Shown here: positions 5,645 to 54,201 of the stretch, one piece after another | Layout of the letters: every line of letters starts with the position of its first letter | Numbering within the stretch: the stretch's first letter is position 1 | Assembly (NCBI RefSeq): GCF_030389965.1 | Contig: NZ_CP128400.1 | Coordinates: 310,001 to 374,000, forward strand | Source of the DNA: Candidatus Chlorohelix allophototropha | GTDB lineage: Bacteria > Chloroflexota > Chloroflexia > Chloroheliales > Chloroheliaceae | Length of the DNA stretch: 64,000 bases | Reading direction: 5' to 3' | Program-made: the position numbers and the translations under genes | The notes under the pieces: generated by a model | What the model saw: the letters and a program-made list of their open reading frames with translations, nothing else | Database searches by the model: none | What the model was told of the DNA's origin: nothing

Positions 5645-6070
5645 TTAACGTGCCAGTATAAACGCCAGCACTATCAGCAATATTATCATCATAACAGTCA
5701 AGGCTGCTACGGTTATAATATCAGAGCGGATAAAAGTATATTCCTGCTGGCGCGAGGTGCTTTGCTGCTGCCGAGAAGCGTTTGCAGAAGCGATACGCCG
5801 CGAAACCGCGCGGTTTGTTGCAGCACTACGTGCCTCCGACTCAGCGCTAATATCGCTCTGTTGTACCGGACGTAGAGGTAAAGACTGACGTATCACTGTT
5901 TCAACTTTTTCTTCAGGTAAATTAATGTCGGGGGCAAGTGTATTGCTACTTACAAACTCTTGCTCTTCATTTTCATCATTATCCGCATAGGCGGTAGATA
6001 CCAGCGGGCGAGTTGCCGATTGTCGCTTGGTAGTTTGCTGGGCACGAGCCGAGCGGCTCTTTTTAGGCAT
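5645..6070 (-). CDS. hypothetical tail-anchored membrane protein
   Basis: Family not recognised. The 141-residue product begins with a basic stretch (MPKKSRSARAQQTTKRQ), continues as a low-complexity Ser/Ala/Gln/Arg-rich segment of about 90 residues, probably disordered, and ends with a single hydrophobic helix (about 118-139) with only Ala-Arg after it. That layout is a tail anchor: the soluble part stays in the cytosol and the C-terminus is in the membrane. GGAG lies 11 bases before the ATG. The next gene upstream on the same strand, 46 bases away, is a DUF1232-like membrane protein; the two are probably co-transcribed. Confidence 0.6.
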   Translation of the reverse strand: MPKKSRSARAQQTTKRQSATRPLVSTAYADNDENEEQEFVSSNTLAPDINLPEEKVETVIRQSLPLRPVQQSDISAESEARSAATNRAVSRRIASANASRQQQSTSRQQEYTFIRSDIITVAALTVMMIILLIVLAFILAR

Positions 6071-46651: not shown

Positions 46652-49600
46652 ATGACAACGCTACCGGAAGCGCTCGCCAGTTATGTTCCATTTCTGGTAG
46701 TGCAAAGAGGACTTGATCCCTTTGCCATTTATGATCAACCCCAAGTTGATCATTTCCCCGCCGCTACTCTGTTCGCCGATATTTCAGGTTTTACTACCCT
46801 CGCCGAGCAATTGGCGCAGCGCGGACCGGTTGGCGCTGAAATTCTCAGTGCCTTGCTTAACAATTACTTCGGACAACTAATCGAATGTGTGCTTTTAAAC
46901 GGCGGGGATGTAGTAAAATTTGCCGGAGACGGGGTGTTAGCGGTATGGAATGTGCGCAACACCAAAGATAACCTTGAAACTGCCATCTTACGTGCTACCC
47001 AATGTGCTATCGAGATTCAAGGCAGGCTGAACGATTACGCCCCCTCTGAAGTAGCCCGTCTGTTCATGCGAATCGGTATTGGGGCAGGAGAGCTATTCAC
47101 CATCCATTTGGGTGGGGTTAATTTTCAGGACAAAAATGGCAACCAACTACCGCCACGCTGGGAAGTACAACTCACTGGCACTCCTTTGACTCAAATGAAC
47201 AAGGCTACCGGAGTTGCTCGACCCGGTGAAGTGCTTCTATCACCCGAAGCATGGGAACTGGTAAGACAAAAATGCCGTGGAAAGCTTCGAGAAGGTGGGA
47301 ATGTTAACCTTTCAGCGGTGCTAGAACCACCTGAACCCGCGATTCTTTTCTTACCGGAAACCTCGCCTGAAGCTGAACTTAGAATTCGTTCTTATATACC
47401 GGAAACGGTGTTGGCACGCCTCAATACCGGACAAAGCGATTGGCTGGAAGAGTTAAGGCGCATTACAGTGCTATTCATTAATCTTCCCACCTTTAATTTT
47501 TCTGAAAAAGGAACGTTAGAAAAAGCGCAATCCCTATTACAAGAATTGCAAAAAATCATCTACCATTATGAAGGGAGCATCAATAAGCTAAGCGTAGATG
47601 ATAAAGGCGCTACATTGGTTGCCGGGTTTGGTATGCCACCGTTGGCGCATGAAGATGATCCGGTACGAGGCTTGAAAGCCGCTCTGACAATTCAAGCGAA
47701 GATGCAGGAATTGGGATACCGCAAGCCTATTGGAGTATCCACCGGGCGCGTCTTTTGCGGACTGGTAGGCAACGAAATGCGGCGCGAATACACCATAATA
47801 GGGGATGTGGTAAACCTTGCGGCGCGACTTATGCAAGCAAGCGAAGACGAAATCCTGTGTGACACCGCTACTTTTCACGCAAGCCAATCAAATTTTAATT
47901 TTGAATCTCTTTCGCCTATCACCTTGAAGGGTAAACGTGGACTGGTTGCAGTATTTCGTCCTACCGAAACGGTAAAACGCGACTCCCGTCAGTTTAATAC
48001 GCTGATAGGGCGCAAAAAAGAATTGCTACCGCTTGAAGAAAAGCTGGTAGTTTTGAAAACAGAGAAACAAGGAGGGGTTATCCTAATCGAGGGCGAGGCT
48101 GGCATCGGAAAATCGCGCCTCGTACAGGAATTGATACGCAAGGCTGGTGAAATGCGTGTCACGGTTTTCTCAGGGGCAGGTGACTCGATTGAGAAATCCA
48201 CGCCTTATTATGCTTGGCGCAGTATTTTCAGCCAACTTTTCGACCTTGAGGTTTTGGCTGAACCTGAAGACCGCCGCCGCCATATTCTCGACCTGCTAGA
48301 GCTTGAGCCTGACCTCCTGAAACTTGCGCCATTACTAAATACCGTTCTGATGCTTGATTTGCCTGAAAATGAGATAACCACCCAAATTACAGGGCAAGCA
48401 CGCGCCGACAATACTCTTTATATGCTGCTAAAAGCTTTACAAGTTTCAACGGCGCGTTCCCCTAAAGTAGCAGTATTGGAAGACGCGCATTGGCTAGATT
48501 CGCTTTCGTGGGACTTGGCAGTACAAGCCAGCCGTGAAGTACCGCACCTTTTGCTATTAATTGCTTTACGTCCGCTTGAAGAAACAAATGCCTCTGATTT
48601 GCGGCAATTAGCCCAAGCTAAAGAAGCTATAGCATTACAACTGGATACCTTGTCACCAAAAGACGTAGTTGAATTGGCATGTGAACGGTTGGGGGTAGAA
48701 GAATTACCCGAACCGGTGGCAAATTTAATACGCAACAAAGCGCAGGGTAATCCTTTCTTTGTAGAGGAACTGGCTTACGCTTTAAGAGATGCAGGGGTAA
48801 TCCAAATCATTGAAAACGAGTGCCGGATTGCGCCTTCCGCCGGAGACTTGAGCAATCTTAACTTGCCTGATACGGTTGAAGGAGTTATCACTAGCCGCAT
48901 AGATTTACTTAGCCCAGAACAGCAATTAACTCTTAAAACTGCCAGTGTAATCGGGCGCATTTTCGCCTACCGTATCCTGCGTGATATCTACCCGGTAGAA
49001 CAAGATAGGGCGCAGTTACCCGACCACCTTTCAATAATGGCGCAACTAGATTTAACACCGCTGGAATCGCCAGACCCCGATCTTACCTATATATTCAAGC
49101 ATGTAATTACACAGGAAGTTACTTATAATCTCATGCTTTTCTCGCAAAGGCGGCAATTGCATCGTGCAATCGGAGAGTGGTATGAGCAAACCTATACGGA
49201 TGACCTAACGCCGCTTTACTCGTTGCTGGCACACCATTGGAGTAAAGCCGAAGTCGGGCTGAAAGCACTCGAATATCTGGCTAAAGCTGGAGAAGAAGCG
49301 CTTCGAGGCGGTTCATACCAAGAGTCGGTGCGTTTTTTCAGTGAAGCGTTGGTAATTTCGGGTGAGCGATTTGGGGTTAACGCTGAGAATAACCTGAATC
49401 CGCAAGGCTCGTTACATGCACAATGGGAACGTCAACTTGGAGAGGCGCATTATGGGCTGGGTAATCTTGAGGAAAGCCGAGTGCATCTTGAAAAAGCACT
49501 GGCTATTCTGGGCGTACCCTTTCCTGAAACGCGCCGGAAATTGGCGTTAAGCCTAATAAAACAGGCGGGCTTACAAACTTTGCACCGCGTTAGGGGAAAA

Positions 49601-50821
49601 TCCGGGCTGGTAAGACGCTTATTGCCGCCAAAATCAGAACTCGACTCCGAAACCTTATTGCAAGCGGCGCAGGCTTATGAAGGATTAGGGCTGGTTCATT
49701 ATTTTGATAACGCTACATTGCCTACGGTTTATGCATCCTTTCAGGCAATAAATCTGGCGGAATATACTAAGCAAACTCCAGAACGCGCCCGACTTTACGC
49801 AAATATGTGTGTGGCGCTTAGTTTGATGGGACTAGGACAGTTTGCCGAAGCTTACGACCAGAAAGCCGGGAAAATGGTACTAAATATTGAACAATCTCCG
49901 GTTAAAGCATGGGTTTTTCAAGCCACCGGAACCTATCGTCTGGGCAAAGGAGATTGGAAAAGAGCCTGTGAATCCCTTGAAAATGCGGTACATATTAACG
50001 AGGAGTTTGGCAACCGCCGCAGTTGGGAGGAAAGTGTAGCCTTGTTGGGATATGTGGCACAATATCGAGGCGAGTATGCTGAAGCCTCAGAATACTATAA
50101 CGAGCTTTATAACAGGGCACGCAGCAACGGACATGCACAGGCACAGGCATGGGCGCTATTAGGACAAGCAGCTTGTACTTTACGCACCGGAAAAAGCAGT
50201 GAGGTAACCGGATACTTGGAAAGGGCTTCAAGCTTGTTGACTGAAGCGCTTGATAAAGTGGATGAAATCCGTTTTTATGGGTTGCTGGCTTCGGCTCGTT
50301 TGCGTTTGCAGGAATGGCAATATGCTGCTCGGCAAGCAGCGGCTACTGCCGCCCGGTTAATAGCACAATCTCACCCTTCGACCGTATATTCTTATGAAGG
50401 TTATAGCGGTGTGGCAGAAGTGTATCTGGGACTTTGGGAGAGTGAATCAAGCACCAGCGCAGCTAAAGGGTTTCGATTTTCACTTGGCGAAATACGTGAC
50501 TCGACTTTAAAAGCCTGTAAAGCTATGGATAAATACGCGCGCATTTTTCCGATTGGTTTACCACGCGCTACACTGTATCGTGGCTTGTACTACTGGCTTT
50601 CAGAAAACACAGTGAAAGCACATAAACTATGGAACAATAGCCTTAGCCATGCTATGCGATTGGATATGCCCTACGAGCAAGGGCTAGCACATTTTGAAAT
50701 CGGCAGACACAGTCATGGCGAAGAACGTAAAACCCATTTGAATTGTGCTATTGAAATATTCGACCACCTTAACACCCCCTTTGACCTCGAACGAGCCAGA
50801 ACCATTTTGTACGGGAAATAA
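46652..50821 (+). CDS. soluble adenylyl cyclase-like protein: two cyclase domains, AAA+ ATPase, TPR
   Basis: Very large signalling protein (1389 aa) with the architecture of soluble adenylyl cyclase (ADCY10 type). C1 (about 30-200) supplies the metal-binding Asp43 (LFADISGFTTL) and Asp93 plus Lys89 (VVKFAGDG). C2 (about 270-430) has lost the metal Asp (LFINLPTF) but supplies Asn388 and Arg392 (GDVVNLAARLM), with Thr381 seven residues before Asn388. So the pair should build one complete site, and Lys/Thr suggests ATP rather than GTP. Then comes a STAND-like ATPase (Walker A GEAGIGKS, about 481-488) and TPR-like helices from about 840. No membrane segment is seen, so it is cytosolic. The ATP-dependent part probably controls the cyclase. 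Confidence 0.85.
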   Translation: MTTLPEALASYVPFLVVQRGLDPFAIYDQPQVDHFPAATLFADISGFTTLAEQLAQRGPVGAEILSALLNNYFGQLIECVLLNGGDVVKFAGDGVLAVWNVRNTKDNLETAILRATQCAIEIQGRLNDYAPSEVARLFMRIGIGAGELFTIHLGGVNFQDKNGNQLPPRWEVQLTGTPLTQMNKATGVARPGEVLLSPEAWELVRQKCRGKLREGGNVNLSAVLEPPEPAILFLPETSPEAELRIRSYIPETVLARLNTGQSDWLEELRRITVLFINLPTFNFSEKGTLEKAQSLLQELQKIIYHYEGSINKLSVDDKGATLVAGFGMPPLAHEDDPVRGLKAALTIQAKMQELGYRKPIGVSTGRVFCGLVGNEMRREYTIIGDVVNLAARLMQASEDEILCDTATFHASQSNFNFESLSPITLKGKRGLVAVFRPTETVKRDSRQFNTLIGRKKELLPLEEKLVVLKTEKQGGVILIEGEAGIGKSRLVQELIRKAGEMRVTVFSGAGDSIEKSTPYYAWRSIFSQLFDLEVLAEPEDRRRHILDLLELEPDLLKLAPLLNTVLMLDLPENEITTQITGQARADNTLYMLLKALQVSTARSPKVAVLEDAHWLDSLSWDLAVQASREVPHLLLLIALRPLEETNASDLRQLAQAKEAIALQLDTLSPKDVVELACERLGVEELPEPVANLIRNKAQGNPFFVEELAYALRDAGVIQIIENECRIAPSAGDLSNLNLPDTVEGVITSRIDLLSPEQQLTLKTASVIGRIFAYRILRDIYPVEQDRAQLPDHLSIMAQLDLTPLESPDPDLTYIFKHVITQEVTYNLMLFSQRRQLHRAIGEWYEQTYTDDLTPLYSLLAHHWSKAEVGLKALEYLAKAGEEALRGGSYQESVRFFSEALVISGERFGVNAENNLNPQGSLHAQWERQLGEAHYGLGNLEESRVHLEKALAILGVPFPETRRKLALSLIKQAGLQTLHRVRGKSGLVRRLLPPKSELDSETLLQAAQAYEGLGLVHYFDNATLPTVYASFQAINLAEYTKQTPERARLYANMCVALSLMGLGQFAEAYDQKAGKMVLNIEQSPVKAWVFQATGTYRLGKGDWKRACESLENAVHINEEFGNRRSWEESVALLGYVAQYRGEYAEASEYYNELYNRARSNGHAQAQAWALLGQAACTLRTGKSSEVTGYLERASSLLTEALDKVDEIRFYGLLASARLRLQEWQYAARQAAATAARLIAQSHPSTVYSYEGYSGVAEVYLGLWESESSTSAAKGFRFSLGEIRDSTLKACKAMDKYARIFPIGLPRATLYRGLYYWLSENTVKAHKLWNNSLSHAMRLDMPYEQGLAHFEIGRHSHGEERKTHLNCAIEIFDHLNTPFDLERARTILYGK

Positions 50822-51730: not shown

Positions 51731-51877
51731 TACCGCCCCACGCTTTGCAATGTTCCTGAAATACAACGTATAGCAATCTTTAAGGATTTTGTATGAAAGT
51801 TGTATTATACTAATCCTCAGCAAGAATTTTTGCCCAATGTATCCCAATAGCTTATGCAGATTCAGAGGAAATTGTTT

Positions 51878-52765
51878 ATGGTTTTACAGCCACTCTGGGA
51901 GCAACTGGCAGCAAATCAAGGTTTGGGAGCAAGCCTCGTAGCGCAAACCACTAGTGCACCGGATTACATAGCCACTTTTTTTGAAGGGCTACTCTCATTC
52001 CTTGCGCCATGTGTTTTACCGCTCGTACCGGGCTATCTTTCATACATAAGCGGGGTATCGGTAGCAAAAGCTGCCCGCACCGTCAAAAACCCGGCAATGG
52101 CGATTTCTACGAATGCAAACAATGGCGGAGCAGTGGCGTTGCAAACAAATCCACATGAAGCTGAAGAGGAAGTAGCTCAAATCAGTGGAGCGGATACCCG
52201 GCGTGTTCTCTTTTCCTCTCTGCTGTTTGTAGCCGGATTTACCACTATTTTTATTCTGTTTTTCGGCTTCTTCAACTTCATTACGGATACTTTCGGCGAC
52301 ATTCGGACTCCGGTGCGGTTAGCGGCAGGTTTGCTGGTAATATTCTTCGGTTTGCATTTTCTGGGCATCTTCCGAATCGGCTTCTTGGATATGGAGCGCC
52401 GCTTCAACCTGAATCGCATCAAGCGAGCCAGCTATATCGGCGCATACTTTTTGGGAGGCGCGTTTGCTTTCGGCTGGACACCTTGCGTGGGACCTTTTCT
52501 CACCGCCGCTATTTTCACGGCTGAACAAAGTAATGGCTGGGAAGGCGCAACCTTGATGCTAATTTATTCGGCAGGGTTAGGCATTCCTTTTATTTTGGCG
52601 GGTTTGTTTTTTAATCGCATGCTGGGCTTTATCGCTCGTTTGCGCCACCATTACCAGATTATTGAAATTGCGAGCGGGATTCTATTACTGCTGGTCGGAT
52701 TTCTATTGATTACCAACAACTTGAGCGCAATTACTCAAGAACTTTCCAAATTCAGATTTTTCTAA
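51878..52765 (+). CDS. ccdA: CcdA-type thiol-disulfide membrane transporter
   Basis: Carries reducing equivalents from cytosolic thioredoxin across the membrane to outside thiol proteins. Both signature cysteines are present in mirrored motifs: LSFLAPCVLPLVPGYLSYISGVSV near the N-terminus and FAFGWTPCVGPFLTAA in the middle. About six hydrophobic helices are seen. A 45-residue polar loop after helix 1 (about 70-115) is longer than usual. The ATG at 51878 has GAGGA 8 bases upstream and gives 295 aa; an upstream ATG at 51854 lacks one. The gene ends 23 bases before the TlpA/ResA-like lipoprotein with the in-frame TGA, its natural electron acceptor. Confidence 0.9.
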   Translation: MVLQPLWEQLAANQGLGASLVAQTTSAPDYIATFFEGLLSFLAPCVLPLVPGYLSYISGVSVAKAARTVKNPAMAISTNANNGGAVALQTNPHEAEEEVAQISGADTRRVLFSSLLFVAGFTTIFILFFGFFNFITDTFGDIRTPVRLAAGLLVIFFGLHFLGIFRIGFLDMERRFNLNRIKRASYIGAYFLGGAFAFGWTPCVGPFLTAAIFTAEQSNGWEGATLMLIYSAGLGIPFILAGLFFNRMLGFIARLRHHYQIIEIASGILLLLVGFLLITNNLSAITQELSKFRFF

Positions 52766-52788: not shown

Positions 52789-53367
52789 ATGTATTTCAGA
52801 CACAAGAGCAGGGGGTGGGCGGCAACGCTTGTAAGCCTGTTAGTTGCGCTAGCGTTGGTTGCCTGTGGTGATACTGCCGCCACTATCGCGCCTGCTGCCA
52901 CTTCACAAGTAACAGCAAGCGCCAATTCAACAAAAGAAATGCCACCGGTAAAAGTTGCGATAGGCTTCACTGCCCCTGACTTTACCGCGCAAACAATTAG
53001 CGGCGAAACAGTACAATTAAGCCTGTTACGAGGCAAAGGGGTTATTGTCAATTTTTGGTCGGTTTATTGACCGAGTTGCCGTCAGGAGTTTCCTGACTTC
53101 GTGCAGACTTATAATGATAACAAAGCCAATCTGACAATAGTGGGCGTAGATTGGGGAGAAACCGAGCAAGAAGTGGAGAGCTTCAAAAGCGAGTTCAAAA
53201 TCCCGTTTCCGCTGACGATTGATAAAACGGGCGACCTTGTAACTTTATTTCGCGCCCCATATCATCCCTATAGCGTTTTCATCAACAAGGAAGGGGTTAT
53301 AACCGGAATTGTGCCGGGATTGGTAACGCCTGAAATGATGAAAAGCCAACTTTCCAAAATTCTTTAA
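52789..53367 (+). CDS. TlpA/ResA-like thioredoxin lipoprotein, candidate selenoprotein (UxxC)
   Basis: Outside-facing thiol-disulfide oxidoreductase. Read through one TGA (53068-53070) it is 192 residues: lipoprotein signal with lipobox LVAC (Cys26), linker, then a full thioredoxin domain: IGFTAPDFTAQTISGETVQL, VIVNFWSVY-[TGA]-PSCRQEF, IVGVDWGETEQEVESF, and a cis-Pro region PYHPYSVFINKEG. The family normally has WCPxCRxE, so TGA takes the place of the first active-site Cys and the motif becomes U94-P-S-C97. Both halves are in one frame with no other damage, and a SECIS-like hairpin follows. As a normal stop, the gene would make a useless 93-residue piece. It follows ccdA and is closed by a terminator. 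Alternative: a fresh nonsense mutation of TGC or TGT. The start ATG has GGAGGG 14 bases upstream, a little far. Confidence 0.75.
53081..53097 (+). promoter_or_regulatory. candidate bacterial SECIS element
   Basis: Perfect 7-bp hairpin GTCAGGA-GTT-TCCTGAC beginning 10 bases after the in-frame TGA. Its apical loop starts 18 bases after the TGA and its first base is G. These three traits (short spacing, stable upper stem, G at the start of the loop) match the published general form of bacterial SECIS elements. Function is inferred. Confidence 0.6.
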
Positions 53368-53382: not shown

Positions 53383-53413
53383 CCCGTCTCCAATTATAGA
53401 GACGGGCTTTTTT
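53383..53413 (+). terminator. terminator of ccdA and the candidate selenoprotein gene
   Basis: Perfect 8-bp stem CCCGTCTC / GAGACGGG with an 8-base loop and a T-tract, 16 bases after the stop. It shows that transcription is meant to continue past the TGA to this point. Confidence 0.9.
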
Positions 53414-53490: not shown

Positions 53491-54201
53491 ATGGCACAAT
53501 CGGACTCGGATTATAAATCGCTGATAGAGCAGGCTGAACGGGCGCTGATTAATGAGGAGTGGCAATACGCGCTAACATTGTTCGAACAGTTGCTACCGCT
53601 TGCACCTGACACCGCAGAACGCGCAGAAGTATTGAACGGGCGCGGGGTGGCATTGCTAAAACTGGAACGCTACGAAGAAGCAATCGCCGTGCTGGAAGAA
53701 GCGCAGAAACTAGAACCGGGAAAGGCTGAAGTTTATTTCAACCGCGCCTTAATCTGCGAGAGTATCGGCGATTTTGAGGGAGCGTTGGCTTTTTACAACC
53801 AGACGATTGAGCTTAAACCGGACGATGCTGAAGCCTATTTTCGGCGCGGTGGCATATATTTTCAGAGCCATCAGTTTGAAGAAACCGTTGCCGATAACAC
53901 GCGCGCTATCGAATTACACAGCGGCGAAGCGGTTACGGGTCCCTATATTGCGCGAGGGCTGGCTTATCATCAGTTAGAACAATACCCTGATGCCTTGAAG
54001 GATTATTCGCAGGCGCTTGAAATTGACCCGCGCGGAGCGGCTGATGCCTATTTCTACCGCGCGCTGATTCATATTGACATGGAAGAAGCTTTACCCGCGC
54101 GCGCCGACTTGCAGGCTTACCTGCTGATGACCGATGACTCGGATGGGTTGCTGGCTACGCAGGCGCGCGAAATAATTGAAGTGCTGGATAACGAGGCTTA
54201 A
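53491..54201 (+). CDS. TPR repeat protein
   Basis: Cytosolic protein of 236 residues made of about six tetratricopeptide repeats, for example AEVLNGRGVALLKLERYEEAIAVLEEAQKLEPG, AEVYFNRALICESIGDFEGALAFYNQTIELKPD and GPYIARGLAYHQLEQYPDALKDYSQALEIDP. TPR proteins bind partner proteins; no enzymatic domain is present. GAAAGG lies shortly before the ATG. The CoA transferase gene starts 19 bases after its stop and is probably in the same operon. Confidence 0.9.
   Translation: MAQSDSDYKSLIEQAERALINEEWQYALTLFEQLLPLAPDTAERAEVLNGRGVALLKLERYEEAIAVLEEAQKLEPGKAEVYFNRALICESIGDFEGALAFYNQTIELKPDDAEAYFRRGGIYFQSHQFEETVADNTRAIELHSGEAVTGPYIARGLAYHQLEQYPDALKDYSQALEIDPRGAADAYFYRALIHIDMEEALPARADLQAYLLMTDDSDGLLATQAREIIEVLDNEA

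Follow-up and report, generated by a model that had tools for sequence, protein, structure and literature searches.

Positions 52789-53367 of the window (the whole 64,000-nucleotide stretch analysed here, C2:310001-374000 of the five-contig, 6.09 Mb Candidatus Chlorohelix allophototropha genome, G000) hold a reading frame for a thioredoxin-like lipoprotein that is interrupted by a TGA in its active site. Is this codon a stop, or is it read as selenocysteine (Sec)? The gene runs on the plus strand from an ATG at 52789 through the TGA at 53068-53070 to a TAA at 53365-53367. Translation showed a single frame with no further in-frame stop codon, and with the TGA read as Sec the product has 192 residues. 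The open-frame list made with table 11 splits the gene into two short frames of 93 and 88 aa. The first-pass annotation had described one frame passing through the TGA to a thioredoxin C-terminal half; our translation gave the same frame, and the half is complete. The active-site stretch FWSVY-U-PSCRQE occupies residues 89-100, with Sec94 at the first active-site position of a UxxC motif (UPSC). The features of the locus are listed below.

51854..52765, plus strand: ccdA-like membrane protein gene, 303 aa, presumed electron donor (Pfam)
52789..53367, plus strand: very probable selenoprotein gene, ResA/TlpA-like lipoprotein with Sec94 (translation, Pfam, AlphaFold, Foldseek)
52789..52866, plus strand: predicted lipoprotein signal peptide and lipobox LVAC with Cys26 (by-eye reading of the translation)
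53068..53070, plus strand: UGA codon, very probably Sec94, aligned with the first active-site Cys of relatives
53077..53079, plus strand: Cys97, resolving cysteine of UxxC, in a column invariant in alignments A1, A2, A4 and A6
53081..53097, plus strand: predicted bacterial SECIS (bSECIS) hairpin, stem 53081-53087 with 53091-53097 (7 bp), loop GUU 53088-53090
53383..53406, plus strand: intrinsic-terminator-like hairpin, 8 pairs then CTTTTTTATT

The terminator-like hairpin is weak on its own, as there are five such sites in the region against 2.7 expected, and a promoter scan gave two sites against 3.0 expected by chance.

The product consists of a signal peptide, a low-confidence linker and a thioredoxin-fold domain covering about residues 56-192. 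The lipobox LVAC was read by eye at residues 23-26; lipidation is predicted, and the Cys26 column is invariant in five family sequences (alignment A1). With U entered as C, the read-through protein matches Pfam AhpC-TSA over residues 58-172 with 78.2 bits (cut-off 26), a match that spans the TGA position, and the Redoxin match (50.3 bits) likewise extends across it. An AlphaFold model built from 22 sequences, also with U as C, has pLDDT block means of 94-98 over residues 61-192 and places Sec94 immediately before a helix at 95-111. In a Foldseek search with this model the nearest solved structures were those of ResA, 1st9 and 4nmu (rmsd 1.1-1.3, 31-32% identity; for 1st9, rmsd 1.2 over 132 columns and 31% identity), with pneumococcal Etrx2 ranking lower. 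Judged from the model, the domain is a thioredoxin fold of the ResA/TlpA type, and it carries the W-x-x-x-C/U-x-x-C motif. The score against the NCBIfam ResA model, 103.9 bits, lies under the cut-off of 170, and the protein is therefore kin of ResA rather than ResA proper.

To look for relatives we searched 61 genomes, in which the top matches after the window itself were in G002, G001, G003 and G004. The G002 match (locus L061, Candidatus Chloroheliaceae L227-5C, a separate assembly from another genus) contains one TGA; those in G001, G003 and G004 contain none. At about 47% identity, the L227-5C orthologue carries its UGA in the corresponding codon and reads FWAVT-U-DFCRQE, while the active sites are YCDYC in G001 and G003 and WCAPC in G004. 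Past the TGA, the Chlorohelix and L227-5C genes share 48 of 98 aligned residues, and the differences fall at codon positions 1, 2 and 3 in the numbers 44, 19 and 54. This identity and this codon-position pattern, together with the AhpC-TSA match across the TGA, place the frame beyond chance. The possibility, raised in the first-pass annotation, that TGA occurs in this strain alone is thus removed, and the homologues that it proposed comparing at this position carry either TGA (L227-5C) or Cys (G001 and G003). This contrast is the usual pattern of Sec/Cys exchange.

Only the L227-5C locus had TGA at the residue-94 position among 80 loci, drawn from at least 502 that were confirmed. Wider searches covered the class (158 genomes) and the phylum (400 genomes drawn), with only some candidates scored in each genome. 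Further genes with one TGA each were found in G017 (one gene), G054 (three in tandem), G122 (one), G034 and G030, and in every case the TGA sits at the first active-site position of UxxC. This brings the total to at least nine Sec genes in at least seven genomes, belonging to families f1, f3, f7 and f12, all in the same class. These totals are minimum counts: the matches listed by the class search, for example, did not include the G034 and G030 genes. A set of 119 aligned rows was limited to those with a match in each of the two active-site columns, spaced three residues apart, and excludes duplicates and rows truncated at the end of a locus; in it the Sec94 column contains Cys in 112, TGA in seven and no other residue.

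In G054 the three tandem TlpA-like UGA genes lie on the minus strand of locus L178 (G054:C214), with TGA starts at 5975, 6577 and 7524. Their 7-bp hairpins are nearly identical, and a ccdA gene follows them.

Reading UGA as Sec requires a dedicated machinery, and the genes that the first-pass annotation had singled out for a search, selA, selB, selC (tRNA-Sec) and selD, are all present in the Chlorohelix genome. All four exceed their curated cut-offs: tRNA-Sec with 72.2 bits against 47 (anticodon tca by ARAGORN), selB with 367.6 bits over nearly the full model length, selA with 565.8 bits, and selD with 360.6 bits and an in-frame TGA of its own. Among 14 control genomes, tRNA-Sec exceeded the cut-off in five, selB in two, selA in one and selD in two, weaker matches being more widespread. 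Each of the seven genomes with TGA genes has tRNA-Sec, with scores of 67.8-78.0 bits (cut-off 47), and selA was found in all five of them that were tested. In ten genomes of the class, tRNA-Sec was above the cut-off in eight (two of these barely, at 47.5 and 53.8 bits) and selA was found in nine; several of the ten had no TGA gene among the matches listed. As the machinery is common in the class, its presence is a necessary rather than a specific sign. Strain L227-S17 is reported to have two chromosomes and a chromid, of 2.96 Mb, 2.45 Mb and 375 kb, and to have been grown in medium that included a selenite-tungstate solution (PMC10972752).

The selD genes are themselves of note. In all five family genomes (G000-G004; loci L045-L049) selD has one TGA followed by a predicted hairpin, and it is a predicted selenoprotein gene (LAACAG-U-A). 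The Chlorohelix copy (L047, C1:719866-720813) and the tRNA-Sec gene are some 2.2 kb apart.

The hairpin GTCAGGA-GTT-TCCTGAC begins ten bases past the TGA of the window gene. It has a loop of 3 nt with G as its first base, a stem of 7 bp, a UGA-to-loop distance of 17 nt and an energy of -10.0 kcal/mol. Published rules for bSECIS elements allow a loop of 3-9 nt, a stem of 4-16 bp and a UGA-to-loop distance of 16-37 nt (PMC13188914, Fig. 2 legend), and further ask for G in the first two loop bases and a minimum free energy of -7.5 or below (PMC13188914). The window hairpin lies within all of these constraints. The L227-5C orthologue has a matching hairpin, and the Cys orthologues of G001 and G003 lack one.

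To compare Sec genes with Cys relatives we used a set of 142 rows that kept a C/U-x-x-C/U motif after F, W, Y or L, from which segments shorter than 100 residues and duplicates were dropped. In a fixed register the nine Sec genes form 7, 7, 7, 7, 7, 7, 7, 6 and 4 of the seven pairs. At least six of seven pairs are thus formed in eight of nine Sec genes, as against two of 133 Cys relatives (both with six pairs, none with seven). Synonymous recoding of 13 codons was then applied to seven Sec genes. For the window hairpin it gave P=0.007 for energy and P=0.013 for the seven pairs; across the genes, P for energy was 0.0007 to 0.012 in six of seven and 0.084 in G017, and P for the number of pairs was 0.0035 to 0.013 in five, with G002 (0.069) and G017 (0.54) not striking. 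The G017 hairpin is weak: it forms four of the seven pairs, and its -7.0 kcal/mol falls short of the published limit of -7.5. Hairpin energies of the seven Sec rows and 112 Cys rows differed with a Mann-Whitney p=1.2e-5, these rows being related, and four of the 112 Cys relatives fold equally strongly (E <= -8.8) through other pairings in the same stretch.

In alignment A5, which contains the nine Sec rows, 93.7% of the cells pair and three stem pairs have changed on both sides. The covariation score of 0.405 was reached by none of 500 shuffles, and the number of doubly changed pairs by 57 of 500. When the partner was slid by 1-3 columns, at most 63.5% paired and the score did not exceed 0.115, compared with 0.405. 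Kinship among the rows inflates both the covariation and the energy tests, six of the nine Sec rows forming one clade. The contrast with Cys relatives and the covariation nonetheless support the predicted hairpin. SelB would bind this hairpin just past the UGA, and Sec-tRNA would decode the UGA as Sec94.

The two short frames of the table 11 list are what would be expected of a recent pseudogene, in which translation would end at the TGA and no longer reach the second half of the frame. Another genus has the same TGA, however, with 48 of 98 downstream residues conserved; there is no second stop in frame; and nine genes have TGA at the site, eight of them with a hairpin of six or seven pairs. 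We consider a pseudogene highly improbable. The TGA is also one base away from a Cys codon, as an error of sequencing or assembly at a single base would have it. Such an error is scarcely credible when TGA occurs there in seven genomes from four families, each with a tRNA-Sec, and is accompanied by hairpins that are mostly missing in Cys relatives.

The codon could instead be read by another route, either through a general change of the code to Trp or through SECIS-independent read-through, and UGA read-through does occur in other bacteria. The first-pass annotation had argued that TGA is an ordinary stop elsewhere, and this holds: of the 37 stop-to-stop open frames of at least 200 codons on both strands of the window, which are open frames and not shown to be genes, seven end in TGA, 19 in TAA and 11 in TAG. 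With a complete Sec system in the genome, and with Cys in 112 of 119 rows, TGA in seven and no third residue, such a route is very unlikely. UGA at position 94 is very probably read as Sec, and the gene is very probably a true selenoprotein gene. The claim that TGA encodes Sec94, made from the window alone, is thereby upheld by the Sec genes, the L227-5C TGA, the hairpin and its covariation. We infer Sec insertion from computed evidence: the frame, the Sec machinery, the hairpin with its covariation, conservation across genera and the predicted fold.

To trace the exchange of Sec and Cys, a tree was made by a quick method from 79 of the 142 rows, comprising the nine Sec rows and the best-scoring 70 of the 133 Cys rows, with the Sec/Cys position masked. 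Sec requires three Sec/Cys changes on this tree, and the well-supported branches force three. The Chlorohelix and L227-5C genes (SH-aLRT 91) are sister to the Cys pair of G001 and G003, the joint clade having a support of 99. The G017 gene is nested in a clade with four Cys rows (100). G054, G122, G034 and G030 contribute six genes, which group together in a single clade (100); the branch leading to it is long and its position uncertain. From the sequences, the three changes may represent three gains, or one gain with losses. On balance we lean slightly towards the view that at least three separate lines in the class gained Sec in extracytoplasmic TlpA/ResA-type lipoproteins, with the same type of hairpin in the same register within a C-R-x-E-x-P motif, one genome having three tandem copies beside ccdA. 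A repeated Cys/Sec exchange with the same hairpin would provide a ready set of cases for studying why certain codons can be converted to Sec.

The ccdA-like gene upstream ends 23 nt before the selenoprotein gene and matches DsbD_TM (PF02683, 43.7 bits) and DsbD_2 (PF13386, 34.9 bits), both above cut-off. CcdA adjoins the gene on its upstream side in the Chlorohelix and L227-5C genomes, as it does at the Cys orthologues of G001 and G003; in G054 and G122 it is the downstream neighbour. None was found in the 10 kb around the G004 relative; at G017 a neighbouring membrane protein resembles CcdA on inspection by eye, with a best tblastn E of 0.016; there was no match in 6.2 kb of flank at G034; and there was none in 3.9 kb on the one side available at G030, where the gene lies at a contig end. 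The other neighbours in the window, at 46652-50821 and 53491-54201, which we take to be an adenylate cyclase/ATPase-TPR protein and a TPR protein, have no evident redox link.

The gene order and the predicted fold suggest how the protein may work. The product would be exported and held at the outer side of the membrane by a lipid on Cys26, and its thioredoxin fold would bear the Sec94-x-x-Cys97 redox pair there. Outside the membrane, disulfides or other oxidised thiols would be the targets of the Sec94 selenolate, and CcdA would most likely re-reduce the oxidised pair with electrons from cytoplasmic thioredoxin. We consider a role as a CcdA-fed disulfide reductase probable; the partnership with CcdA and the direction of electron flow are those predicted from this arrangement.

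ResA acts in cytochrome c maturation together with ResB. ResB (PF05140) was found in neither of the two genomes searched, G000 and G002, by a search that gave matches above cut-off in five of 14 controls. This gives no support to a role like that of ResA in System II cytochrome c maturation, and the missing ResB in both genomes argues against haem attachment by this system. A cytochrome b6f-like cluster has been reported for L227-S17 (PMC10972752).

The protein could be a true selenoprotein that uses Sec for peroxide reduction, metal (copper) handling or oxidative folding, and not as a CcdA-fed reductase. The absence of detectable ResB from G000 and G002 fits such a role, as does the lack of a CcdA match in the flanks of the G034 and G030 genes. 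The Pfam AhpC-TSA family, moreover, includes peroxiredoxins, and TlpA is said to reduce the copper chaperone ScoI and CoxB (a reference title in PMC7539508). On the other side, the resolving Cys is retained in UxxC within a ResA/TlpA-type fold, and ccdA adjoins the gene in G000, G002, G054 and G122. We hold these other roles to be unlikely and prefer that of a CcdA-fed disulfide reductase.

DsbA-like and DsbG-like proteins are extracytoplasmic, as are ResA and StoA, which are CcdA-dependent. The active site of the pneumococcal proteins Etrx1 and Etrx2 contains Cys. Bacillus subtilis ResA (1st9) and StoA share the ResA fold with the Chlorohelix protein, with Cys where the latter has Sec. The NCBIfam model NF041054, ResA-like WAxxUGC, would, judging from its name, have Sec as many residues after the Trp as here, within a ResA-like domain; its motif is UGC and not UxxC, and the model is longer (354 positions). 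The Chlorohelix protein, with UPSC, scored 40.0 bits against its cut-off of 300. Eight of the nine Sec proteins were scanned, some of them as incomplete segments, and none passed any of the NCBIfam cut-offs listed.

Related selenoproteins have been listed before. The table of a 2026 review includes a thiol-disulfide isomerase-like protein (cd02966, UxxC; accession MGB1650493.1), a UGC-containing TlpA disulfide reductase family protein (cd02966), and DsbA-like and DsbG-like UxxC selenoproteins (PMC13188914). Marine surveys recorded a Trx-like 1 family (COG0526, UxxC) with 321 sequences (PMC2398784), and a 2006 survey counted three selenoproteins in Chloroflexi (PMC1794560). The cd02966 UxxC proteins (Sargasso Sea, PMC1088965; PMC13188914) and Trx-like 1 (PMC2398784) have the same TlpA-like/thioredoxin fold with Sec first in CxxC; compared by description, the accessible parts of these sources mention no lipoprotein or link to CcdA. 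The Chlorohelix UxxC lipoprotein may belong to the listed cd02966 UxxC family. An algal survey names a TlpA selenoprotein, likewise a Sec-containing, TlpA-named member of the thioredoxin-like proteins (PMC7539508); that protein is eukaryotic and is reported with a hemerythrin metal-binding domain, whereas none was among the Pfam matches here. In its gene arrangement the locus resembles the pneumococcal ccdA/etrx operons, in which CcdA1 and CcdA2 feed the surface thioredoxin lipoproteins Etrx1 and Etrx2, serving MsrAB2 (PMC3914529). There, as here, a thioredoxin-fold surface lipoprotein is encoded with ccdA, and by analogy the route from cytoplasmic Trx through CcdA to the lipoprotein (PMC3914529) would be the one proposed for Chlorohelix. 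No MsrAB2-type gene was recognised beside the Chlorohelix gene.

The first-pass annotation had called a surface lipoprotein with Sec unusual. Given the TlpA-like UxxC selenoproteins already listed, proteins of this kind are less out of the ordinary than that. The literature searched, mostly outside subscription journals, gave no report of the Chlorohelix protein or of a lipoprotein-anchored TlpA selenoprotein. What appears to be new is a UxxC lipoprotein of the ResA/TlpA type with a likely CcdA partner, outside the NCBIfam models; TlpA-named selenoproteins were already known. Gene-finding software that has no fitting selenoprotein model would probably split or truncate the gene. The finding points to selenium use in the Chloroflexota phototroph that has been cultivated and has a type I reaction centre; a predicted catalytic Sec on the exterior of the membrane would allow substrates to be sought with simple assays.

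Two further genes were observed in passing. Near the UxxC gene of G017 (contig C49; L192:3331-4581, minus strand) lies what we take to be a DUF3179 protein, a family that is listed with Sec forms (PMC13188914). On Chlorohelix contig C1, a Cys-type TlpA-like protein of 227 aa with the active site FWASWCIPC, which may have some connection with selenium metabolism, is encoded divergently beside selA (L141:6963-7646, plus strand).
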